Of a DNA stretch of 32,680 bases, positions 4,234-29,508 are shown one piece after another. The DNA is taken from the IMG/VR virus record IMGVR_UViG_3300021511_000023, positions 1 to 32,680 of that record. The stretch is one strand, 5' to 3'. Position 1 is the stretch's first letter. Each line of letters starts with the position of its first letter. A program made the position numbers and the translations under genes. A model generated the notes under the pieces. The model did not search any database. It was not told the origin of the DNA and worked only from the letters and a program-made list of their open reading frames with translations. The DNA is from a virus.

Positions 4234-6696
4234 CTATTTCCCATAGAGGAGTTGCTGCGTGCGGATAAAATCGGTCAGCGTGCGCTCGCTCTGGTAGGCA
4301 TAGTGGGCCTGGATGTGAAAAATGTTGCTCGGTCCCTGTTGTGCCGCCCCCGCACCGGCGATGGCCGGACCAACGAGTGGCGCCGGTGCGGGGGCGGCTC
4401 CCCCCCTCAACACGCCTGAGCGCAGCAACGCCTCCAGCCCCTTCTCTGGAAAACGTGGGTTGACGACGATCTCCTGGCCCGCCAACCAGGCCGGATAGTG
4501 GCGGTGTGGTGAGCCGGGCTGCTGCCCGCCGAATTGCCACACCGCGCCCTTGCCGGGGGCGTGGTCTTCCCCTTTGGGCGTGAGCTCTGGGGGCGGCACA
4601 TACACGCCCTTGATGGTCAGTTCGCGAGATTTGTTGAGCACCGTGTCCAGCTTGTCGTCCCATTTTTTGATGTCCTTGATGCCCTTACGCCACATCTCGC
4701 CGCTCATCGTCTCCCACGATTCCTTATAGGTGCGGTAGTCTGTCTCGCCGGTGGCCAGCGTGGTCTTGAGTTTTTCCTCCAGGTCGTCCATCTTTTTCAT
4801 CTCGCTGTCGTAGCGGGCCACTTGCATCGCCAGGTTGGTATCGCTGCTGTCACGGATGGTTCCCCAATAGGCGTTCCATAGTTTGCGCTTGCGAGCATCG
4901 TGCTCCTGGAGCTCGGTCTCCATGTTGCCGTGAGTGGCCTTCCAGTCCTCCTGCTGCTTTCTCAGCGTCTGCTCGGCGTACCAGGCCGTGTCCCAGGCCC
5001 CGGCCTTGCGCAGCTCGACGATGCGTTGCGTCTCGGCGGCCACCCAGGCGTCGTGGCTCGTCTGGTCGGCCTTGCGCTTGGCCAGGGTCGCCGCCCAGGC
5101 CTGATCCTCATTGGCCAGGGCCGCCCGCGCCGCAGTCACCCGCTGGTCATCGCTGCGCTTGGCCGCCTCCAGGATGATGGCGTTCCACCGCTTCTCGGCC
5201 GCGGCCCGCTGCGCCGGCAGAGTTTCGAGCTCCAGGTAGGCTTTCTTCTGGTTGTCCATTTTCTTGGCTTCGTCATCCCAGATGCCTTTGTAGGGCCATT
5301 CGGGGAGGTTGTCCATGACCAGGCCCAAACCAGCCACATTTCCCTTGACCGTCTCAATCGCGGTAGCTGCAAGGTCGGCTTCCTGCTTGAGATTCAGAAA
5401 GCCGTCTGTTAGGGGGGTCATATAAAGGGGGGCATCCCCCATAATCTGCGCCGCCTCGCGGGAGATTCTGACAAAATCCTCATAGCTAATGCGGCCCTCA
5501 TCCAGAGCACGCCGGGCTAGTGTGATTTGGTGAGTCGCAATTTTCCCGCTATCCTCCGCCTCATAATTGGCCTTATTCAGGGCCTCCACCGCTTCCTTGG
5601 TGACCCACGCCCCGGCGGCCACTGCTGCCAATGCCAGCGCCACCTCACCCAGGGCCACCACCAGCCCGCCGGAGGCCAGGGCTGCAGCCCCACTAACACC
5701 CGTCAGGCCACCACCACCACCCAGCGCCCCGGCCAGCCCCTCAACCGCCGTCGCCCCGCCCGCCATCGCCGCATTGTCCGCCACCTGCGCCGCCGTGTGC
5801 GTGACCGTGGCCCCGGTATCCGCTATTTTCGCCAGCTTGAGGGCCGTGTAGAGCGGCAGGACGGTATCGATGAGCCCCATCCCATCCTCCAGCACCTGGA
5901 TCCAGGGCCCGCTCTTGTTGATGGCCTGGCCCAGTTGCGCGGTTATGTCTTGGATGGAATTCTGCAGCCGCTTGTACTGCCCATCGGCCGTGCCGCTCGC
6001 TGCGGTGGCCTTCCCCTGCGCATACGCCGCCTGTTTCAACGCCTCCTGGTAGCGGTATTGCGCTTTCGTGTTGTCGTCCAGCTTCTCCCAGGTATCCTTG
6101 AGCGACCCGCCGAGGGCCTTGTTTTTCATATAGGTGTCATTGAGGGTCAGCCCCAGATACTCGCTGGCCTCGGCCTCGCCCCGGATGGCGCTCTGCAGCC
6201 GGGTCGTGGCGTCATACACGTCGATGCCCTTCACCGCCGCCAGGTCCGCCGAGGCGCTGATGAGCTCCTTGACCTGGTCCTCGGTCAACCCATAGTTGTC
6301 GATGAGCGTCTTCATGTTCTCGGCCGACTGCATGAACGCCTCATCGCTATAGATGGTGGCCTCCTGCATCCGGCCCGACCAGCTCACCCAGTCCTGCGCT
6401 GTGTTCACATACGCCGCCTGGATCGCAAACAGCGCCTGCTCGGTGGCCCGGCCGGAGGCGCTGACGTCGCTGGCCATGCGCACGGCGGCCCGCGCCCCGG
6501 CCGTGAGCTCGGCGCTGTGTTTCTTGATGGCCTGACCCAAGCGCTTGAACTTACCCTCGGAGGAGGCCACCTGGCGATCCAGATTCTTGGCCGCCCGCTC
6601 GGTTTCCTTGAAACTGCGGGACATCGCCTTGTTGGGGCCGCTGACCTCGTCTACGGCCACGGCCCGGATCTCGACAGTCCGGGATGCGGTTCTCAT
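4234..6696 (-). CDS. Tail tape measure protein
   Basis: The protein has 820 aa from the ATG at 6696, preceded by CGGAGGGAAC and overlapping the stop of the chaperone-T frame (ATGA). It has long alpha-helical stretches: residues 1-60 are charged helix (SFKETERAAKNLDRQVASSEGKFKRLGQAIKKH), residues 90-300 resemble the TP901-type tape measure core with YGLTEDQVKELISASADLAAVKG, and a hydrophobic Gly/Ala-rich membrane-like segment lies near residues 325-375. A Trp/Lys-rich helical region and a tail ending in QSERTLTDFIRTQQLLYGK follow. At the usual ~0.15 nm per residue this would set a tail near 120 nm. It sets tail length and probably enters the cell envelope during DNA ejection. No lytic domain was recognised. 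Confidence 0.9.
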   Translation of the reverse strand: MRTASRTVEIRAVAVDEVSGPNKAMSRSFKETERAAKNLDRQVASSEGKFKRLGQAIKKHSAELTAGARAAVRMASDVSASGRATEQALFAIQAAYVNTAQDWVSWSGRMQEATIYSDEAFMQSAENMKTLIDNYGLTEDQVKELISASADLAAVKGIDVYDATTRLQSAIRGEAEASEYLGLTLNDTYMKNKALGGSLKDTWEKLDDNTKAQYRYQEALKQAAYAQGKATAASGTADGQYKRLQNSIQDITAQLGQAINKSGPWIQVLEDGMGLIDTVLPLYTALKLAKIADTGATVTHTAAQVADNAAMAGGATAVEGLAGALGGGGGLTGVSGAAALASGGLVVALGEVALALAAVAAGAWVTKEAVEALNKANYEAEDSGKIATHQITLARRALDEGRISYEDFVRISREAAQIMGDAPLYMTPLTDGFLNLKQEADLAATAIETVKGNVAGLGLVMDNLPEWPYKGIWDDEAKKMDNQKKAYLELETLPAQRAAAEKRWNAIILEAAKRSDDQRVTAARAALANEDQAWAATLAKRKADQTSHDAWVAAETQRIVELRKAGAWDTAWYAEQTLRKQQEDWKATHGNMETELQEHDARKRKLWNAYWGTIRDSSDTNLAMQVARYDSEMKKMDDLEEKLKTTLATGETDYRTYKESWETMSGEMWRKGIKDIKKWDDKLDTVLNKSRELTIKGVYVPPPELTPKGEDHAPGKGAVWQFGGQQPGSPHRHYPAWLAGQEIVVNPRFPEKGLEALLRSGVLRGGAAPAPAPLVGPAIAGAGAAQQGPSNIFHIQAHYAYQSERTLTDFIRTQQLLYGK

Positions 6697-18616: not shown

Positions 18617-18814
18617 TCAGCGCAACCCCCACCCATCGACGGGGGAGGCGCGTCGGTGCGCCGCCGCCGCGTCCGTGCTGGCCAGGGCCAGGTAGCGGCG
18701 GCACATCGCCAGACTGGTGTGCCCAAGAATCTCTTGCAGGTTGAATACGTCCCCGCCATTGCGACTGCGTTCCTCAATCCGCCGTTTGAGCCACTCACGA
18801 AATGCTTCGCTCAT
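18617..18814 (-). CDS. Tyrosine recombinase C-terminal fragment
   Basis: The product is 65 aa from an ATG at 18814. Residues 19-44 ([26 protein letters not shown]) match the last part of phage integrase/XerC-type tyrosine recombinases, including the conserved Gly-His (31-32) and the presumed nucleophile Tyr41. The catalytic Arg-Lys-HxxR core is missing, so it cannot recombine DNA alone. The first 18 residues replace the usual RHTFAT segment with basic helical sequence. It sits on its own extended -10 promoter next to the early promoter. It may be a relic of a lost integrase gene or a small protein derived from one. Confidence 0.75.
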
Positions 18815-20064: not shown

Positions 20065-20802
20065 GTGAGCGAAAAACTACACGAACCAACACCAGACGAA
20101 TTAGCGGAAATATTGAACCGCCACCGTGCCTGGCTTCGCGAGGAGAAAGATGGCCGCCGCGCGGACCTGAGCGGCGCGAACCTGCGCGGCGCGGACCTGA
20201 GCGACGCGAACCTGCGCGGCGCGAACCTGCGCGGCGCGAACCTGAGCGGCGCGTACCTGCGCGGCGCGGACCTGAGCGGCGCGGACCTGAGCGGCGCGTA
20301 CCTGCGCGGCGCGGACCTGAGCGGCGCGGACCTGAGCCGCGCGGACCTGAGCGGCGCGAACCTGAGCGGCGCGAACCTGAGCGGCGCGTACCTGCGCGGC
20401 GCGGACCTGAGCGACGCGGACCTGAGCGGAACCTGCCTTGATCCAGAACTCCAAAAACTTCAGCGCCAGTTCTGCAAAGCCTGTCCACCCAATCGCCATG
20501 GTGGCAGAATCATTTATCGCACCGCCAAATCGCAACACGTTGGCGACACAGTGTACCAGCCAGGGCGCACCTATGTTGCCCCAATACTCTCATTCGATAG
20601 CGCCACCGCATGTCACCCCGGCATCTACGCCGGGTCCCTAAAGTGGATGCGGCAGAACTATCCAGATGAGCCCCTGATACGCTGTTACACGCGCGACGGC
20701 GATTGGGTCATCGCTGCCAAGGGCGCCATCCGCTGTCAGCGCCTGAGAGTGTTGAACATCGTAGAGCACCCGCCCAATGAGGGAACCGGGGCCCCGGCCT
20801 GA
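20065..20802 (+). CDS. Pentapeptide-repeat protein with DUF5758-like C-terminal domain
   Basis: A GTG at 20065 follows AAGAGGAGGTGAACC and gives 245 aa. Residues 1-30 are helical. Residues 33-122 contain 18 consecutive A(D/N/Y)L(S/R)G pentapeptides, which should fold as a right-handed quadrilateral beta-helix. Residues 126-245 form a separate domain ([30 protein letters not shown], then [13 protein letters not shown]) like the domain that follows pentapeptides in several phage proteins. Some pentapeptide proteins (Qnr, MfpA, McbG) mimic DNA and protect gyrase; whether this one does is unknown. Its charge pattern alternates Asp with Arg and is only mildly acidic. Confidence 0.8.
20157..20430 (+). 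repeat. Near-perfect 15-bp tandem DNA repeat encoding the pentapeptides
   Basis: The repeat units differ mainly at the variable codons (GAC, AAC or TAC) and the following AGC/CGC codon; the GGCGCG core is almost invariant. Such DNA-level identity points to recent expansion by slippage or recombination. It also creates long open frames on the opposite strand, which are artefacts of the repeat. Confidence 0.9.
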
Positions 20803-23628: not shown

Positions 23629-24629
23629 GCATCAAGGTGATGAATCGCGTTTGGGAGCAGTCAACGCAACAGGACGGCACCCTGCGCCTGCTCCTCCTGG
23701 CCCTGGCTGATCACGCCTCCGATGACGGCGTATGCTGGCCCGGCATTGACCGCCTGGCCCGCAAGATAGCCAAAACCCGCCGCCATACTCGGCGGCTCCT
23801 CAGCAACCTGGAAGAGAGCGGGGAGCTGTTCATCAACCGCCAATGGGGACGTGGCCACACCAACCTGTACCTCATCACCATTGGGCAGAACGCTGACGAA
23901 ATCAAGCCCACCCTGATGCGCCGCTTCGAGATAGAGGTTAAGGCAGCGTGCCAGTTGGCGCATGAACTGGTAGCAAAACGGGACGCCCACGCCCCCTTTC
24001 TAGCCGAAAAAGAGGACACCTGCGACACCTTTTCAGGCGAAAAAGAGGACGCCCACGCCCCCGTTTCACCACCCGTAAAAGAGGACATGGGCGTCCGAAA
24101 AGGGGACACCCAGGGCAAAAAGGGGACACCGGCGTCCGTAAAAGAGGACATAGCTATGTCCCCCGAACCCAAGGAACCATCATTAAACCATCAGGAACCA
24201 TCAGGGGGGGCTGCCGCCCTAGAGACCGAGCCAACCCCACCAGTTGAGGAAAAGCAACCTCGCCAACCTCGCCAACCTCGCCAACGCCGCCAACGCCGCC
24301 GGAGCAAGACACCGCCCCCCCCAGCCGCCCAGGTGTATCGTAGCGTGGCTCACTTGTACCCGGCCAAATCCTGGTATGCCACTTTGGACCAAGTCATCGG
24401 GTGCGAACAGGTCGATTTGGACTTCTGGCGCGAGGTGGTGCACGCCTACATCGGCCTCGGCTGGAATAAGCGCAACGTCAAAACCATGCTCGAGTACTAC
24501 CAGCGGCGTGAGATCCCGGTATTACGGTCCCAACGCAACAACAGCTGGAGGCAGCCCCAGGGCAACGAACCGGCCGGATTCGCGGCTATCAGAGAGTTAG
24601 CTATCGAGGAGGGTTGGGGCGATGGCTGA
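23625..24629 (+). CDS. Winged-helix replication initiator (lambda O / HTH_36 type)
   Basis: The protein has 334 aa. Residues 18-80 are a winged helix (RLLLLALADHASDDGVCWPGIDRLARKI, then RRHTRRLLSNLEESGELFI), the DNA-binding domain found in lambda O-like and DnaD-like phage initiators. Residues 115-190 are low-complexity repeats (EKEDT, EKEDA, VKEDM, RKGDT, VKEDI) that mirror DNA repeats in the gene. A basic Pro/Gln/Arg stretch (about 205-225) leads to a C-terminal domain (AHLYPAKSWYATLDQVIG, then VHAYIGLGWNKRNVKTMLEYY) that may contact the helicase or its loader. The helicase-loader-like gene follows with an 8-base overlap. It is expected to open the origin located within its own coding sequence. 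Confidence 0.75.
   Translation: MSIKVMNRVWEQSTQQDGTLRLLLLALADHASDDGVCWPGIDRLARKIAKTRRHTRRLLSNLEESGELFINRQWGRGHTNLYLITIGQNADEIKPTLMRRFEIEVKAACQLAHELVAKRDAHAPFLAEKEDTCDTFSGEKEDAHAPVSPPVKEDMGVRKGDTQGKKGTPASVKEDIAMSPEPKEPSLNHQEPSGGAAALETEPTPPVEEKQPRQPRQPRQRRQRRRSKTPPPPAAQVYRSVAHLYPAKSWYATLDQVIGCEQVDLDFWREVVHAYIGLGWNKRNVKTMLEYYQRREIPVLRSQRNNSWRQPQGNEPAGFAAIRELAIEEGWGDG
23975..24161 (+). other. Iteron array, candidate replication origin inside the initiator gene
   Basis: Seven direct repeats of the core AAAAGAGGACA (variants AAAACGGGACG and AAAAGGGGACA) begin at 23975, 24008, 24041, 24077, 24098, 24118 and 24140. Spacings are 33, 33, 36, 21, 20 and 22 bp, close to whole helical turns. The last repeat runs into the perfect 16-bp palindrome GGACATAGCTATGTCC at 24146-24161. 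Several copies are followed by GGCGTCC or its inverse GGACGCC. Lambda and related phages carry iterons for O protein in the same position within the O gene. A locally less GC-rich stretch follows (about 24170-24205). Confidence 0.7.
24257..24300 (+). repeat. Tandem short repeat in the initiator gene
   Basis: Nine-base units based on CAACCTCGC, then CAACGCCGC, repeat about five times and encode a basic QPR/QRR tract. This may be a slippage-prone linker or an additional part of the origin region. Confidence 0.7.
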
Positions 24630-25807: not shown

Positions 25808-26518
25808 GTGAAAGAGCGCCTTGACGCCATCGAACGCACCGCCGTCAATCTGGTGGCTCGCCTGGCCCCCTGGTGCGCGCCCATCCCCACCGCCTACCTG
25901 GTAGGCCGCGCTACCGTGGAGCACCTGCGCTGGCCCTGGCTCGTGGGGGCCATTGCGGCCGTTGTCGTGGAAAGCCTCGGCCTGGCCACCACGGCCACGG
26001 CTCTGGAGTTGCGCGAGTACAACAAGGAAAAGCGCAAGAGCGACCCGGTAGCGCCTTGGCGTCTAGCTGCGTTTCTCGTCGGGTTGTACATCATCGTGGG
26101 CATCGGTCTGACGGTGTTGCTGGACATCGTGCCGGCCCTGTCCAGCTACGCGCCAGCCGTCTTTCCGCTCCTCGGTCTGGCCGGCATGACAGTGTTGGCT
26201 CTCCGAGCCGACCACGCCCGGCGGCTCGCGGGCGTGACCGCAGACAAGGCGGACCGTCGCCGGCAACGAGCGGCTCGCCGGAAGGCAACAGCCGCGGCGG
26301 CCCGCACGGTGAAGCCGGACGCCCGCGAGCAACCGCCCGCAGAGCCGGACGACAACGGCCACCAGCCGCTGACCTATGCCGAGTTCGTCCGGCTGCACCC
26401 GGATACAACGGACATGACCGGCAAGCAGGTAGCTGAACTAGCGGGCGTCCACGAACGTACCGGCCGGTCTTGGCTACAGCGCCGCCGGCTCGAGTTGGAG
26501 ACTCCCCATGAGGAATGA
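25808..26518 (+). CDS. Membrane protein with C-terminal helix-turn-helix domain
   Basis: A GTG at 25808 follows TTGGAGGAACC and gives 236 aa. Three membrane helices lie at about residues 43-66, 84-107 and 112-134. A very basic linker follows (140-165, DKADRRRQRAARRKATAAAAR), then a cytoplasmic domain (187-230) with GKQVAELAGVHERTGRSWLQRRR, which reads as a helix-turn-helix. The architecture is like DUF2637/SpdB-type proteins that accompany FtsK-like transfer ATPases on actinobacterial plasmids and integrative elements. Here too an FtsK-like gene follows. It could tether DNA or the translocase to the membrane. Confidence 0.6.
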   Translation: MKERLDAIERTAVNLVARLAPWCAPIPTAYLVGRATVEHLRWPWLVGAIAAVVVESLGLATTATALELREYNKEKRKSDPVAPWRLAAFLVGLYIIVGIGLTVLLDIVPALSSYAPAVFPLLGLAGMTVLALRADHARRLAGVTADKADRRRQRAARRKATAAAARTVKPDAREQPPAEPDDNGHQPLTYAEFVRLHPDTTDMTGKQVAELAGVHERTGRSWLQRRRLELETPHEE

Positions 26519-26624
26519 CAGCCACTACCTCACCCCCCGCGAGGCGATGGCCACGCAGCAAACGCAAGGCCCCCCGGTGGCGACACCTGGAGACTTTGTC
26601 ATTTTCGAGGAGGTGACCAGATGA
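26508..26624 (+). CDS. Short ORF coupled to both membrane-HTH and translocase genes
   Basis: An ATG at 26508 lies inside the end of the previous gene, and its stop overlaps the translocase start (ATGA), giving 38 aa (MRNDSHYLTPREAMATQQ, then GPPVATPGDFVIFEEVTR). No ribosome site of its own is strong. The double overlap is typical of a translated coupling peptide. Its function is unknown. Confidence 0.45.
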   Translation: MRNDSHYLTPREAMATQQTQGPPVATPGDFVIFEEVTR

Positions 26625-27955
26625 CAGACAAGGCGGCTTTACTCAACGACTTTGCAACCCGCGTCGTCAAGGCGGCCTCGGGCGGCCTGCTCGACAAGCG
26701 GCCCATCGAGATCCGCCAGGTGCGCACGGTGGCCGGGCCTCGGGCCGGGGCCCTGCAGGTGGACGCCGGCCTGGACGCCGGGCGGCTCTTGCGCGTGCTA
26801 TCGCGCGACGACTGCGCGCTCCTGCGTCAATTCGTGCCCTGGAACTTTGCGGGCCACCCGGCCGCGTTCATGGCCGGCCGGTGGGTGCGCGTGGAGGCCG
26901 GGTGGTCCCCAGAACTGGCCGAGAGCGACATCCCCCTCCGCGCGCTGGGGCCCTATCCCCACGGCGGCGGCCGGTGGGTGTTGGGCAAGAACGAACACGG
27001 CCGCACGGTGGCGGCGGGCCTGAACCTGGACCGCACCCCCCACTGGCTGGTGAGCGGGGCCACCGGCGCGGGCAAGACCGTGGCCCTGCGCTCCGCCGTG
27101 TGCCAACTGGCAGCCGACCCGCACAACCGCCTGGTGGTGGTGGACGGCAAGCGGGGGGCCAGCTTTCGGGGCCTGGCCATGGCCGGCATGGTGGGGCCCG
27201 TGGCCACGCGGCCCGATGACTGGCGCGCGGCCCTGGTGTGGGCGGCCTCGGCGATGCGGACGCGCTATGATGACCCCGGCGGGCCGGGCCGTCTGGTCGT
27301 CGTCGTCGATGAGGTGCAGGAGGTCATTTTAGCGGACCCGGCGGCGGCGGAGGCGGTGCGGCGGCTGGTGGTGCTGGGCCGTGATGCGGCCGTTCACTGC
27401 CTGCTGGCGACCCAACACCCCATTGTCAAGGCCCTGGGCGGCCCCACCGTGACGCGCAACCTGGTCGGGCGGCTGGCCTTGCGGGTGGCGGACTATGACG
27501 CTTCCAGGGTGGCCGTGGGCGGCTCTACTCCCCGCGCGGATCATCTGCTGGGCCGGGGCGACGCCTACGCGGTGGCCCCCACCGCTTGCCAGCGCGTCCA
27601 GGTGGCCTACACTACCGCCGTCGACCTGGAGGGCGTGGCCGGGGCCCCGGAGTGGGACGCCTGGCCCGAGGTGGACGCGGCAGACCTGGGGACGGCCCCC
27701 AAAGGGCGCCCCAGCAAGTGGCCTGAGCCCCCGGAAGTGGGCGCGGCTATCGCGGCCGCAGCCGACGGGCAACGCGGCCGGCCGTGGCTACAGCAAGCAA
27801 TCGTGAGCCAGGGCTTGCCCCGGCCTGGGTGCGGCCGTACAGACCGGCTCTTGCACTTGGGGCGGGAGGTGGTGGGCTGGCTGGAAACCAACGAGTGGAT
27901 ACTCACGCATGATCAAGCGTGGGCAGAGCAAGGCGTGGTCTGTCAGTCTGCCTGA
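26621..27955 (+). CDS. FtsK/SpoIIIE-type DNA translocase
   Basis: The protein has 444 aa from an ATG after GAGGAGGTGACCAG. Residues 1-110 are an N-terminal domain of unknown type without membrane helices. The motor has Walker A SGATGAGKT (145-153), RLVVVDGKRG (170-179), Walker B RLVVVVDEVQEV (224-235), the sensor-like HCLLATQHP (259-267) and VGGSTPRADHLLGRGDAYA (299-317), all typical of FtsK-like ATPases. The C-terminal ~70 residues (RPWLQQAIVSQGLPRP, then TDRLLHLGREVVGWLE) could be a winged helix similar to a gamma domain. This class pumps double-stranded DNA as a hexamer. The membrane anchor may be supplied by the preceding gene. A role in phage DNA transfer, partition or segregation is inferred. 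Confidence 0.82.
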   Translation: MTDKAALLNDFATRVVKAASGGLLDKRPIEIRQVRTVAGPRAGALQVDAGLDAGRLLRVLSRDDCALLRQFVPWNFAGHPAAFMAGRWVRVEAGWSPELAESDIPLRALGPYPHGGGRWVLGKNEHGRTVAAGLNLDRTPHWLVSGATGAGKTVALRSAVCQLAADPHNRLVVVDGKRGASFRGLAMAGMVGPVATRPDDWRAALVWAASAMRTRYDDPGGPGRLVVVVDEVQEVILADPAAAEAVRRLVVLGRDAAVHCLLATQHPIVKALGGPTVTRNLVGRLALRVADYDASRVAVGGSTPRADHLLGRGDAYAVAPTACQRVQVAYTTAVDLEGVAGAPEWDAWPEVDAADLGTAPKGRPSKWPEPPEVGAAIAAAADGQRGRPWLQQAIVSQGLPRPGCGRTDRLLHLGREVVGWLETNEWILTHDQAWAEQGVVCQSA

Positions 27956-27963
27956 AACGGCGA

Positions 27964-27999
27964 CACGCCCCCTCCGGGACGCCCGGAGCGTGGTTTTTT
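27964..27999 (+). terminator. Intrinsic terminator after the translocase gene
   Basis: CTCCGGG (27972-27978), loop ACG and CCCGGAG (27982-27988) form a 7-bp stem, extended by an outer CACG/CGTG pairing, and six T at 27994-27999 follow. It starts shortly after the translocase stop. The genes downstream may therefore need another promoter or read-through. A TTGACT at 28011 has no convincing -10. Confidence 0.65.
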
Positions 28000-28058
28000 G
28001 GGGTGTGTGCTTGACTTTCGGACAGACAGACAGCGAACACAACGGAAGGGAGGTGGCG

Positions 28059-28373
28059 GTGTTAGAACTCTTGGGGTATTTCGACTGGATAAGCCCCCTG
28101 GTGGCCATGCTACAGACGATCAAGCACGGGCGCGGTCATGCGTTCTATGTGGGGCTGGACAGCGGGTGGACCGGGGCGCAATGCGACCGCATTCTCAAGG
28201 ACGCCGGGATCACGGTGTATGGGCGGTGCATCGCCAAAGGGGACGCATTTTTCCAGGTGCCCACGGCCCAGGCGGAGTGGGCGGAGTACCTACTGCTACG
28301 CGCTGGCGTGCCCCTCAAGTATCGGTTGTACAGCAAGCGGAACGCGCAATACCTGATAGGGGGAGTGGGATGA
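28059..28373 (+). CDS. Hypothetical protein of the translocase cluster
   Basis: A GTG at 28059 follows AAGGGAGGTGGCG and gives 104 aa. It is a compact alpha/beta protein (FDWISPLVAMLQTIKHGRGHAFYVG, then GAQCDRILKDAGITVYGRCI, then EWAEYLLLRAGVPLKYRLYSKRNAQYLIGG). The GWTGAQCDRILKDAGI segment is probably a helix-strand unit. It is not recognised. The stop overlaps the next start (ATGA), so it is coupled to the membrane protein that follows. Confidence 0.6.
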   Translation: MLELLGYFDWISPLVAMLQTIKHGRGHAFYVGLDSGWTGAQCDRILKDAGITVYGRCIAKGDAFFQVPTAQAEWAEYLLLRAGVPLKYRLYSKRNAQYLIGGVG

Positions 28374-28789
28374 ACACACACAAGGCGGCTGGCATTCGGC
28401 AACTGGTGGGCGTGGTGGTGGGCGTGGGCCTGCTGGCCTGCCTGGGCCTAGCCACCCTGGGCGGCGGCGCGTGGTGGCTAGTCCAGGAACACGTGGGCGC
28501 GGACGCGGCCCGACTGTGGGCGCTCCTGGCCACCGTGGGCTTGCCCGTGGTGCTGGCCGTCGGTTACTGGCTGGGCCGGGTGGAATCGCGCGGCCTGGTG
28601 GCCGGCCTGGACACGGGGATCGGCAAGGCGATGGACGCGGCCAGCAAGACCGCAAACCTGCGGGTGAACGTCTTGCGAGCGACCCAGCGACCAGTGCCCC
28701 CGGCCCCCCTGGATCCCCGCCAGGTGGTGATCATCCCGGCCCCGGCCCCAGCGATGGGTGGCGGCGACGACGTGCTACTACTGGAGTAG
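28370..28789 (+). CDS. Two-helix membrane protein of the translocase cluster
   Basis: The protein has 139 aa. Two membrane helices are evident, at about residues 11-38 (VGVVVGVGLLACLGLATLGGGAWWLV) and 46-67 (LWALLATVGLPVVLAVGYWLG), then a soluble tail with MDAASKTANLRVNVLRATQ and a Pro-rich end. Both the context and the topology suggest it belongs to a membrane complex with the neighbouring proteins. No family is recognised. Confidence 0.6.
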   Translation: MNTHKAAGIRQLVGVVVGVGLLACLGLATLGGGAWWLVQEHVGADAARLWALLATVGLPVVLAVGYWLGRVESRGLVAGLDTGIGKAMDAASKTANLRVNVLRATQRPVPPAPLDPRQVVIIPAPAPAMGGGDDVLLLE

Positions 28790-28804
28790 AAGGGAGGCGG
28801 AACT

Positions 28805-28840
28805 ATGAACCAAGCAGTACAAGGACTGTTCACGACGTGA
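28805..28840 (+). other. Eleven-codon ORF with ribosome site
   Basis: An ATG at 28805 follows GGGAGGCGGAACT and encodes MNQAVQGLFTT before a stop. A leader peptide or the remainder of a truncated gene is possible. The next full gene starts 39 bases later with its own ribosome site. Confidence 0.3.
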
Positions 28841-28878
28841 ACGGCCAGCAAGGGCAACCAAAACAAGGAGGGTTTATC

Positions 28879-29508
28879 ATGCGACTGTTAGGATTTGGCA
28901 AAAGTACGAAGCGGCGCTTGCCCGTGGTGGTGGACCAGAGCGGGCAGGCGGAGGGCGTGGACTTTGACGCCCAGGTGCACGACAACCGGGTGGCGCTCTA
29001 CCGGCCGCCGGTAGTGTTAGACGCCCAGGGCCGGACGGCCCCTGGCGTGACCCGTGACCTGGTGGCGCGCTACCTGGCCGGGACGGTGGCGCGTATGACC
29101 GATGTGCAAATGGGGCCGGTCAACGTGACCTGGAAGGAATCAACGGGGCGCTTTGTTCTGGCAGCCTACCAGGTGCCCACCTTTGACGTGGGCTTTGAGG
29201 TCATCCATCCGGCCGGCGTGGTGGACCAGAGCGTGGCCAATGTCCTGGACCAGTACATGGCCGGCATCTGCCTCAAGGTGCTGGAGATGATGAAGGGACA
29301 CCAGCGGTACGACTCCGCCAATCGGCTCATCCGGCGCGCCCGCCAGCGGCTAGAGAACCTGCGCGATGTGGCTCCGCCGGTGGTGACCACCCCCGAGTAC
29401 CTGTTCCTGGACGCGCAGTTATCGGCTGCCCTGGTGCTCTCGGCGCTCCCCCACGTGCCCCAGGGCGGGGGCGAGCCCGTCATCGGTCAAAACGCGATGG
29501 TGGCCTGA
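28879..29508 (+). CDS. Hypothetical protein, last gene of the plus-strand block
   Basis: The ATG at 28879 follows AAGGAGGGTTTATC and gives 209 aa. The N-terminus is basic and beta-like (RLLGFGKSTKRRLPVVVDQSG); the middle has VNVTWKESTGRFVLAAYQVPTFDVGFEVIHPAG; the C-terminal half is helical (DQSVANVLDQYMAGICLKVLEMMKGHQRYDSANRLIRRARQRLENL). No motif of a known enzyme is seen. It closes the translocase cluster just before the convergent terminator. Confidence 0.6.
   Translation: MRLLGFGKSTKRRLPVVVDQSGQAEGVDFDAQVHDNRVALYRPPVVLDAQGRTAPGVTRDLVARYLAGTVARMTDVQMGPVNVTWKESTGRFVLAAYQVPTFDVGFEVIHPAGVVDQSVANVLDQYMAGICLKVLEMMKGHQRYDSANRLIRRARQRLENLRDVAPPVVTTPEYLFLDAQLSAALVLSALPHVPQGGGEPVIGQNAMVA

Follow-up and report, generated by a model that had tools for sequence, protein, structure and literature searches.

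Streptomyces TraB is a hexamer that moves double-stranded DNA (dsDNA) and recognizes 8-bp repeats; Spd membrane proteins accompany it. One of these, SpdB2 of pSVH1, is an oligomeric membrane protein which binds DNA and interacts with TraB (PMC4170104). The actinomycete integrative and conjugative elements (AICEs) are defined by an integrase, a replication protein and a Tra protein of the FtsK/SpoIIIE type, and a 2011 survey reported them as restricted to Actinomycetales (PMC3218068). Here, a cluster of six open reading frames (ORFs) including an FtsK-type gene was analyzed in the virus record IMGVR_UViG_3300021511_000023. The window is this whole record (1-32,680; 32,680 bases), and the cluster lies at 25808-29508 on its plus strand. 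The conserved unit is the pair of a soluble FtsK and a downstream two-helix membrane protein, not the six genes. The best explanation, with a probability of roughly 0.5, is a split, membrane-tethered FtsK that would pump dsDNA of the element itself at, or through, the membrane or the septum.

The features of the cluster are as follows.

25808..26518, plus strand: membrane-HTH protein of 236 aa with a GTG start preceded by GGAGG; three predicted membrane helices, a charged linker and a C-terminal helix-turn-helix (HTH)
26508..26624, plus strand: 38-codon ORF, possible coupling ORF; overlaps both neighbors and is not conserved
26621..27955, plus strand: probable soluble FtsK-type dsDNA translocase of 444 aa; the alpha/beta motor carries Walker A (residue 146) and Walker B (residue 225), and the C-terminal region is short and helical
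27972..27998, plus strand: terminator-like hairpin (27972-27988) and T run, just 3' of the FtsK gene
28059..28373, plus strand: 104-aa protein, function not assigned; frame open from 27909, likely GTG start at 28059 after GGGAGG
28370..28789, plus strand: two-helix membrane protein of 139 aa, predicted to have both ends in the cytoplasm; partner conserved with the FtsK family and proposed anchor
28879..29508, plus strand: 209-aa protein, function not assigned; most likely ATG start at 28879

Of the 13 loci with sequence available past FtsK, 12 encode a homolog of the two-helix protein downstream of the motor gene and in the same orientation; G690C83 is the sole locus without it. Two further loci end inside FtsK and stand outside the 13. 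The count includes related loci of single genomes (G015 and G003), and independent events are fewer. The loci are few, many lie in short contigs of metagenome-assembled genomes (MAGs), and genes in the relatives were called with a simple coding-bias script. The earlier note, made from the letters of the window alone, had proposed the six genes as one unit, but neighborhood comparison showed that only the FtsK and two-helix pair is kept.

Two helices (predicted at 12-30 and 46-64 in the window protein) are common to the two-helix family; the segment following helix 2 is basic, and the tail has acidic and hydrophobic residues at its end. In the window protein, this segment has 7 K/R and 3 D/E, and the tail is therefore predicted to be cytoplasmic, on the side of the motor. 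The simplest reading of these sequences is that the two-helix protein stands in for the membrane domain which FtsK normally has in the same chain, and it is quite likely that the motor is tethered in this way. In profile comparison, the two-helix protein showed no relationship with SpdA, with SpdB or with the small membrane proteins of contigs C265 and C359. On each of these two contigs, which belong to one Anaerolineae MAG, a small two-helix gene comes after the gene of a soluble FtsK from a different clade, and profile comparison (1.2%) detected no homology of its product to the window family. On contigs L090 (868-2487) and L089 (9245-10689) of the Anaerolineae MAG, a soluble FtsK motor gene precedes a small two-helix gene, and the gene 5' of FtsK in L090 looks like lexA. 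A split FtsK may be a general feature of these Anaerolineae bacteria.

The motor itself was assigned by several lines of evidence. The FtsK protein matches FtsK_SpoIIIE in Pfam (E 1.2e-16), with AAA_22 also matched, and its motor region matches phrog_1358 (1.6e-25). No NCBIfam model reaches its cut-off. No membrane helix is predicted in its 444 aa, in agreement with the earlier description of a motor without its own anchor. The AlphaFold model has a mean predicted local distance difference test (pLDDT) score of 76, mostly 75-90 in the motor part and about 50 in the C-terminal part. The best matches of this model against PDB with Foldseek were the motor domains of E. coli and P. aeruginosa FtsK (2ius and 6t8o, E about 1e-22), followed by TcpA, the coupling ATPase of pCW3 conjugation (6o1w), and EccC. 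A sequence profile searched against solved structures returned matches in the same order. From this family and fold, the protein is very probably a motor that moves dsDNA. A gamma domain at its C-terminus is not supported; the region has no Pfam match and scored 0.8% in profile comparison with the gamma winged-helix region, with which it has a short G-x2-RAxRL-type motif in common.

Relatives of the FtsK protein with 45-59% identity are found in viral contigs (L002, L003 and L012) and in Anaerolineae MAG contigs (L004 and L005). The family is present in 2 of 400 genomes of the phylum Chloroflexota and 5 of 396 genomes of the class Anaerolineae, and this rarity fits the expectation for mobile DNA. 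So far, its members have been observed only in Chloroflexota mobile DNA or in virus contigs that are unassigned; thus the host of the window is apparently a member of Chloroflexota. In the maximum-likelihood tree, the family forms one clade (support 96/95), in which members from phages and from elements are interleaved. Two elements of an Anaerolineae genome (G003) group with the phages G418 and G004 (100/99). The family joins the TraB rows at 90/89 only, with long branches, and the tree does not clearly ally it with TraB. A second FtsK-like gene is present in L004 (7689-8522, with FtsK_alpha and FtsK_SpoIIIE), L005 (6979-7971) and L054 (3246-4445). It is directly 5' of the main FtsK gene in two of these elements and in the same cluster in the third.

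The pair is carried by five phages: the window, G001, G002, G004 and G418, recognized by terminase, portal or tape measure genes. The window was described from the beginning as a tailed phage, and its virion genes confirm this; the large terminase, portal, major head and tail proteins are encoded on its minus strand. It does not have the layout of an AICE (integrase, replication protein and FtsK without virion genes), as it contains terminase, portal and head genes. The pair is also found in G690C95, an element that occupies about 12 kb flanked by host genes and whose FtsK matches the family hidden Markov model (HMM) at 1.5e-112. This element encodes a serine integrase (Recombinase, 8.9e-21), an HTH_17 excisionase-like protein, a DnaA_N replication protein (7.6e-7), a DNA methylase, an HNH nuclease and a ParM-like partition protein (PHROG, 2e-21). 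Among its scanned proteins there are no virion proteins; the HNH nuclease weakly matches one terminase-small-subunit family. G690C95 thus has the AICE gene set of integrase, replication protein and FtsK/SpoIIIE Tra protein without virion genes, while its replication protein is not of the AICE types RepSA, RepAM or Prim-Pol. The parallel with actinobacterial elements drawn in the earlier note holds in this layout, a Chloroflexota serine-integrase element without virion genes, but not in homology to Spd or DUF2637.

G003C272 resembles G690C95 in having a DUF3854 primase-helicase and a serine integrase. It also encodes a terminase-small-subunit-like HTH protein, and its left end lies beyond the contig; a phage satellite or remnant is a possible alternative to an integrative element. 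In G003C185, the module is beside a serine recombinase, followed by the host his operon. There are no direct repeats longer than 13 nt that could serve as attachment sites of the integrative elements, and their ends are thus putative. ParM-type actin genes lie in the cluster of the pair in four loci (G001, G451, G461 and G690C95), a ParA gene lies downstream in G015C341, and the phage G004 has a ParB gene. Of phage-plasmid traits, the window has the O-like initiator only, and its relatives G001 and G004 have the actin partition gene and ParB, respectively. The element contig L004, which has no large terminase, encodes a terminase-small-subunit-like HTH protein at 5160-5543; the contig possibly comes from a phage satellite or from a prophage that is incomplete.

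The first gene of the cluster encodes the membrane-HTH protein, with predicted helices at 45-63, 86-104 and 114-132. The number of helices in both membrane proteins, three and two, is as first described. In the window protein alone, the HTH match is weak (HTH_23, E 0.01). It is clear in family members (HTH_AsnC, 1.9e-7; HTH_24, 2.3e-6; Pfam), and the model of the window protein contains three C-terminal helices (190-196, 205-212 and 216-231) with pLDDT of about 90. A C-terminal HTH, as the earlier note had predicted, is supported by these family sequences and the model. The profile of the family matches the HTH of the L004 protein at 95.8%, whereas the membrane part of the latter differs. A fold search with the model gave no significant match, and a scan of viral contigs with the membrane-HTH protein alone gave no matches.

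The membrane-HTH family is wider than the FtsK family, with 14 loci found by HMM. It adjoins this FtsK family in three loci: the window, G015C426 and G003C185. The G015C426 protein is 52% identical to that of the window overall and 63% identical over the first 156 residues. In G015C601, L078 and L083, membrane-HTH genes adjoin divergent FtsK-like ATPases, some of which have their own membrane segments. HTH-bearing membrane proteins with other membrane domains hold the same position in L003 and L004. In G015C89, the order is the membrane-HTH gene, an unrelated two-helix gene and a relative of the window 209-aa protein (66% identical), as if, in the lineage of the window, the FtsK block had come in between these genes or had been exchanged. 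The six-gene cluster is a mosaic of the FtsK pair and the membrane-HTH neighborhood rather than one fixed system, because the membrane-HTH gene occurs with other FtsKs, without FtsK and in the arrangement of G015C89. The membrane-HTH gene of L064 (10091-18835) has as neighbors the genes of a tyrosine integrase and of a primase of the Prim-Pol/DnaG type; small membrane proteins and a Zot-like ATPase are encoded at a greater distance. This region is possibly a filamentous-phage-like prophage of Chloroflexota.

All six ORFs first reported are present, and their boundaries are largely as described. The fourth likely starts at GTG 28059 rather than with its open frame, since the terminator-like hairpin sits in the 5' part of the 27909-28373 frame, and the last likely starts at ATG 28879. 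The 38-codon ORF does overlap both neighbors, with ATGA-type junctions, but it is missing in the close relative G015C426, where FtsK directly follows the membrane-HTH gene. The 104-aa protein has one relative, in the phage contig G002. A scan of viral contigs with the 209-aa protein gave no matches.

In the proposed mechanism, a soluble hexameric motor of the FtsK type would be held at the cytoplasmic membrane by the small two-helix protein, whose tail would be cytoplasmic. After replication, this motor would pump double-stranded DNA, either at the membrane or septum or through it, and DNA copies could thereby reach daughter cells, neighboring cells of the filament, or both. That the cargo is the element's own DNA is somewhat favored. 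The membrane-HTH protein probably binds the element DNA at the membrane and hands it to the pump, as SpdB2 accompanies TraB in Streptomyces. Movement of dsDNA by a membrane-tethered FtsK would most plausibly take place at the septum. R. castenholzii and 'Ca. Viridilinea mediisalina' belong to a class of Chloroflexota other than Anaerolineae. Septal channels were observed in both by cryo-tomography, and filamentous Chloroflexota have shared septa (PMC7332563). Judged from gene content, the adjacent partition genes favor inheritance and the AICE-like layout favors spread; both would rest on the same pumping action. Transfer of DNA between cells is rather unlikely.

Several observations weigh against a tethered pump of this kind. 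In the window, the 104-aa gene and the terminator-like hairpin come between FtsK and its two-helix partner, partition genes are absent and the integrase is a fragment only. The C-terminal region of FtsK is poorly modelled, and no DNA-reading domain was matched there. The earlier note had proposed to look for short repeated recognition sequences. No cluster of TRS-like or KOPS-like repeats, or of 8-bp repeats of the clt type, was found near the module, although a degenerate site, or one elsewhere, may exist; the clearest repeat clusters of the window are in the pentapeptide-repeat gene, the replication gene and the structural genes. Homology of the membrane-HTH protein to SpdB/DUF2637 (PF10935) is not detectable and was rejected. 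Nine members of the family have no Pfam match to it, and profile comparison gave a probability of 0.4% and at most 0.7%. The tree, Pfam and profiles detected no sequence link of the module to TraB, Spd or DUF2637. Membrane-HTH genes are also found without any FtsK in G015C89, L077, L079, L080, L082, G108 and G022, and in such phages and elements an integrase often adjoins the gene (G108, G022 and L077). It is conceivable, on this distribution, that FtsK and the two-helix protein belong together as one module, and that the membrane-HTH protein, bound to the membrane, regulates lysogeny or replication independently of them; their adjacency would then mean little. The 209-aa relative in G015C89, linked to the membrane-HTH gene and not to FtsK, agrees with such independence. 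However, the membrane-HTH family lies beside four distinct FtsK-like lineages, which chance would not favor, and the HTH-bearing membrane proteins with other membrane domains, at the same place in L003 and L004, also speak against it. This separation is a tentative alternative.

The pump may serve maintenance alone, clearing or segregating prophage or plasmid copies or multimers at the host septum without intercellular transfer. The partition genes near the pair (four ParM-type actins, ParA and ParB) and a motor fold near chromosomal FtsK are consistent with it. Partition would, however, be superfluous for loci with adjoining integrases as long as they are integrated. The layout of G690C95 is AICE-like, and partition genes are absent from the window; this restriction is possible rather than probable. 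FtsK/HerA ATPases are known from defense systems, and PADLOC matches mad8 and SspH in the motor region. The matches span the common FtsK domain only, no nuclease or other partner of the mad8 or SspH systems is present, and the module is located among replication genes or by integrases; exclusion, in which the motor and membrane proteins would block the entry or maintenance of competing DNA, is improbable. Still less credible is a role in the virion, such as genome packaging or ejection. FtsK-like and packaging motors have a common P-loop design, but the phage encodes its own terminase, and the module is with replication genes on the strand opposite to the virion genes and is also found on an element without virion genes. 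The split, membrane-tethered FtsK pumping the element's own dsDNA is retained as the best explanation.

The early region of the window, on the plus strand, encodes an AAA_24 ATPase, an O-like replication initiator, a helicase-loader-like protein and an HNH nuclease, and the six-ORF cluster comes directly after these genes. Short direct repeats with a AAAAGAGGAC core, at 23975-24151 (plus strand) within the O-like initiator gene, resemble lambda-type origin iterons. A pentapeptide-repeat protein is encoded at 20065-20802 (plus strand; Pfam 1.2e-40), with a DNA repeat period of 15 nt. The minus strand encodes, at 18617-18814, the C-terminal 65 aa of a tyrosine recombinase (Phage_integrase match, E 0.0012). 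No N-terminal integrase part for it was found in any minus-strand frame up to 19900; it may represent a decayed integrase or, alternatively, an attachment gene's 3' end. The minus-strand late genes leave the window at one end (1 / 32680) and continue at the other, and the record therefore looks circularly permuted and nearly complete. No terminal repeat was found at the window ends (1 / 32680).

If the proposal is true, a second, independently assembled version of FtsK-type dsDNA transfer, in filamentous Chloroflexota and common to tailed phages and to integrative elements without virion genes, would widen a mechanism described in Actinobacteria, and the phage might also move or persist as naked DNA. 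In its fullest form, Chloroflexota would have an FtsK transfer system of their own, with a two-helix anchor, often a DNA-binding membrane protein, and membrane parts unrelated to the actinobacterial ones. It would move dsDNA through filament septa, and tailed phages would have acquired it as a means of spreading, in the form of prophage or plasmid DNA, without lysis. This full form is doubtful. Even on the more modest reading, in which a split FtsK has its own small membrane anchor, this compact system would allow membrane attachment to be studied separately from the motor. One literature search on FtsK and integrative conjugative elements of Chloroflexi found no paper.

Compared with FtsK/SpoIIIE (2ius and 6t8o), the phage motor shares the alpha/beta motor fold, the Walker motifs and the FtsK_SpoIIIE family. 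It differs in lacking the N-terminal membrane domain, instead of which there is the separate two-helix protein, in lacking a recognizable gamma domain and in being encoded by mobile DNA. TcpA of pCW3 (6o1w), in the second-best fold group, is also FtsK-like and used in DNA transfer, but it serves a larger conjugation apparatus, none of which is encoded in the phage module. Among phage proteins, the FtsK/SpoIIIE-like phrog_1358 matches in the motor region, whereas its model has about 1,380 positions against 444 aa and a separate membrane partner in the window. The C265 and C359 pairs share the order of a soluble motor and a small two-helix gene, and their FtsK clade differs.

With the TraB/Spd systems and AICEs (pIJ101, pSVH1 and pSAM2), the module shares an FtsK-type motor accompanied by membrane proteins. 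The membrane-HTH layout is like that of pIJ101 SpdB, with a membrane domain, a charged linker and a C-terminal HTH, the HTH-like end of SpdB being judged by eye. The layout of integrase, replication protein and FtsK is shared by AICEs and G690C95. The module is from Chloroflexota, not Actinobacteria, and it is also found on tailed phages. By analogy, it may work like an AICE transfer module, yet it is not classed as an AICE.

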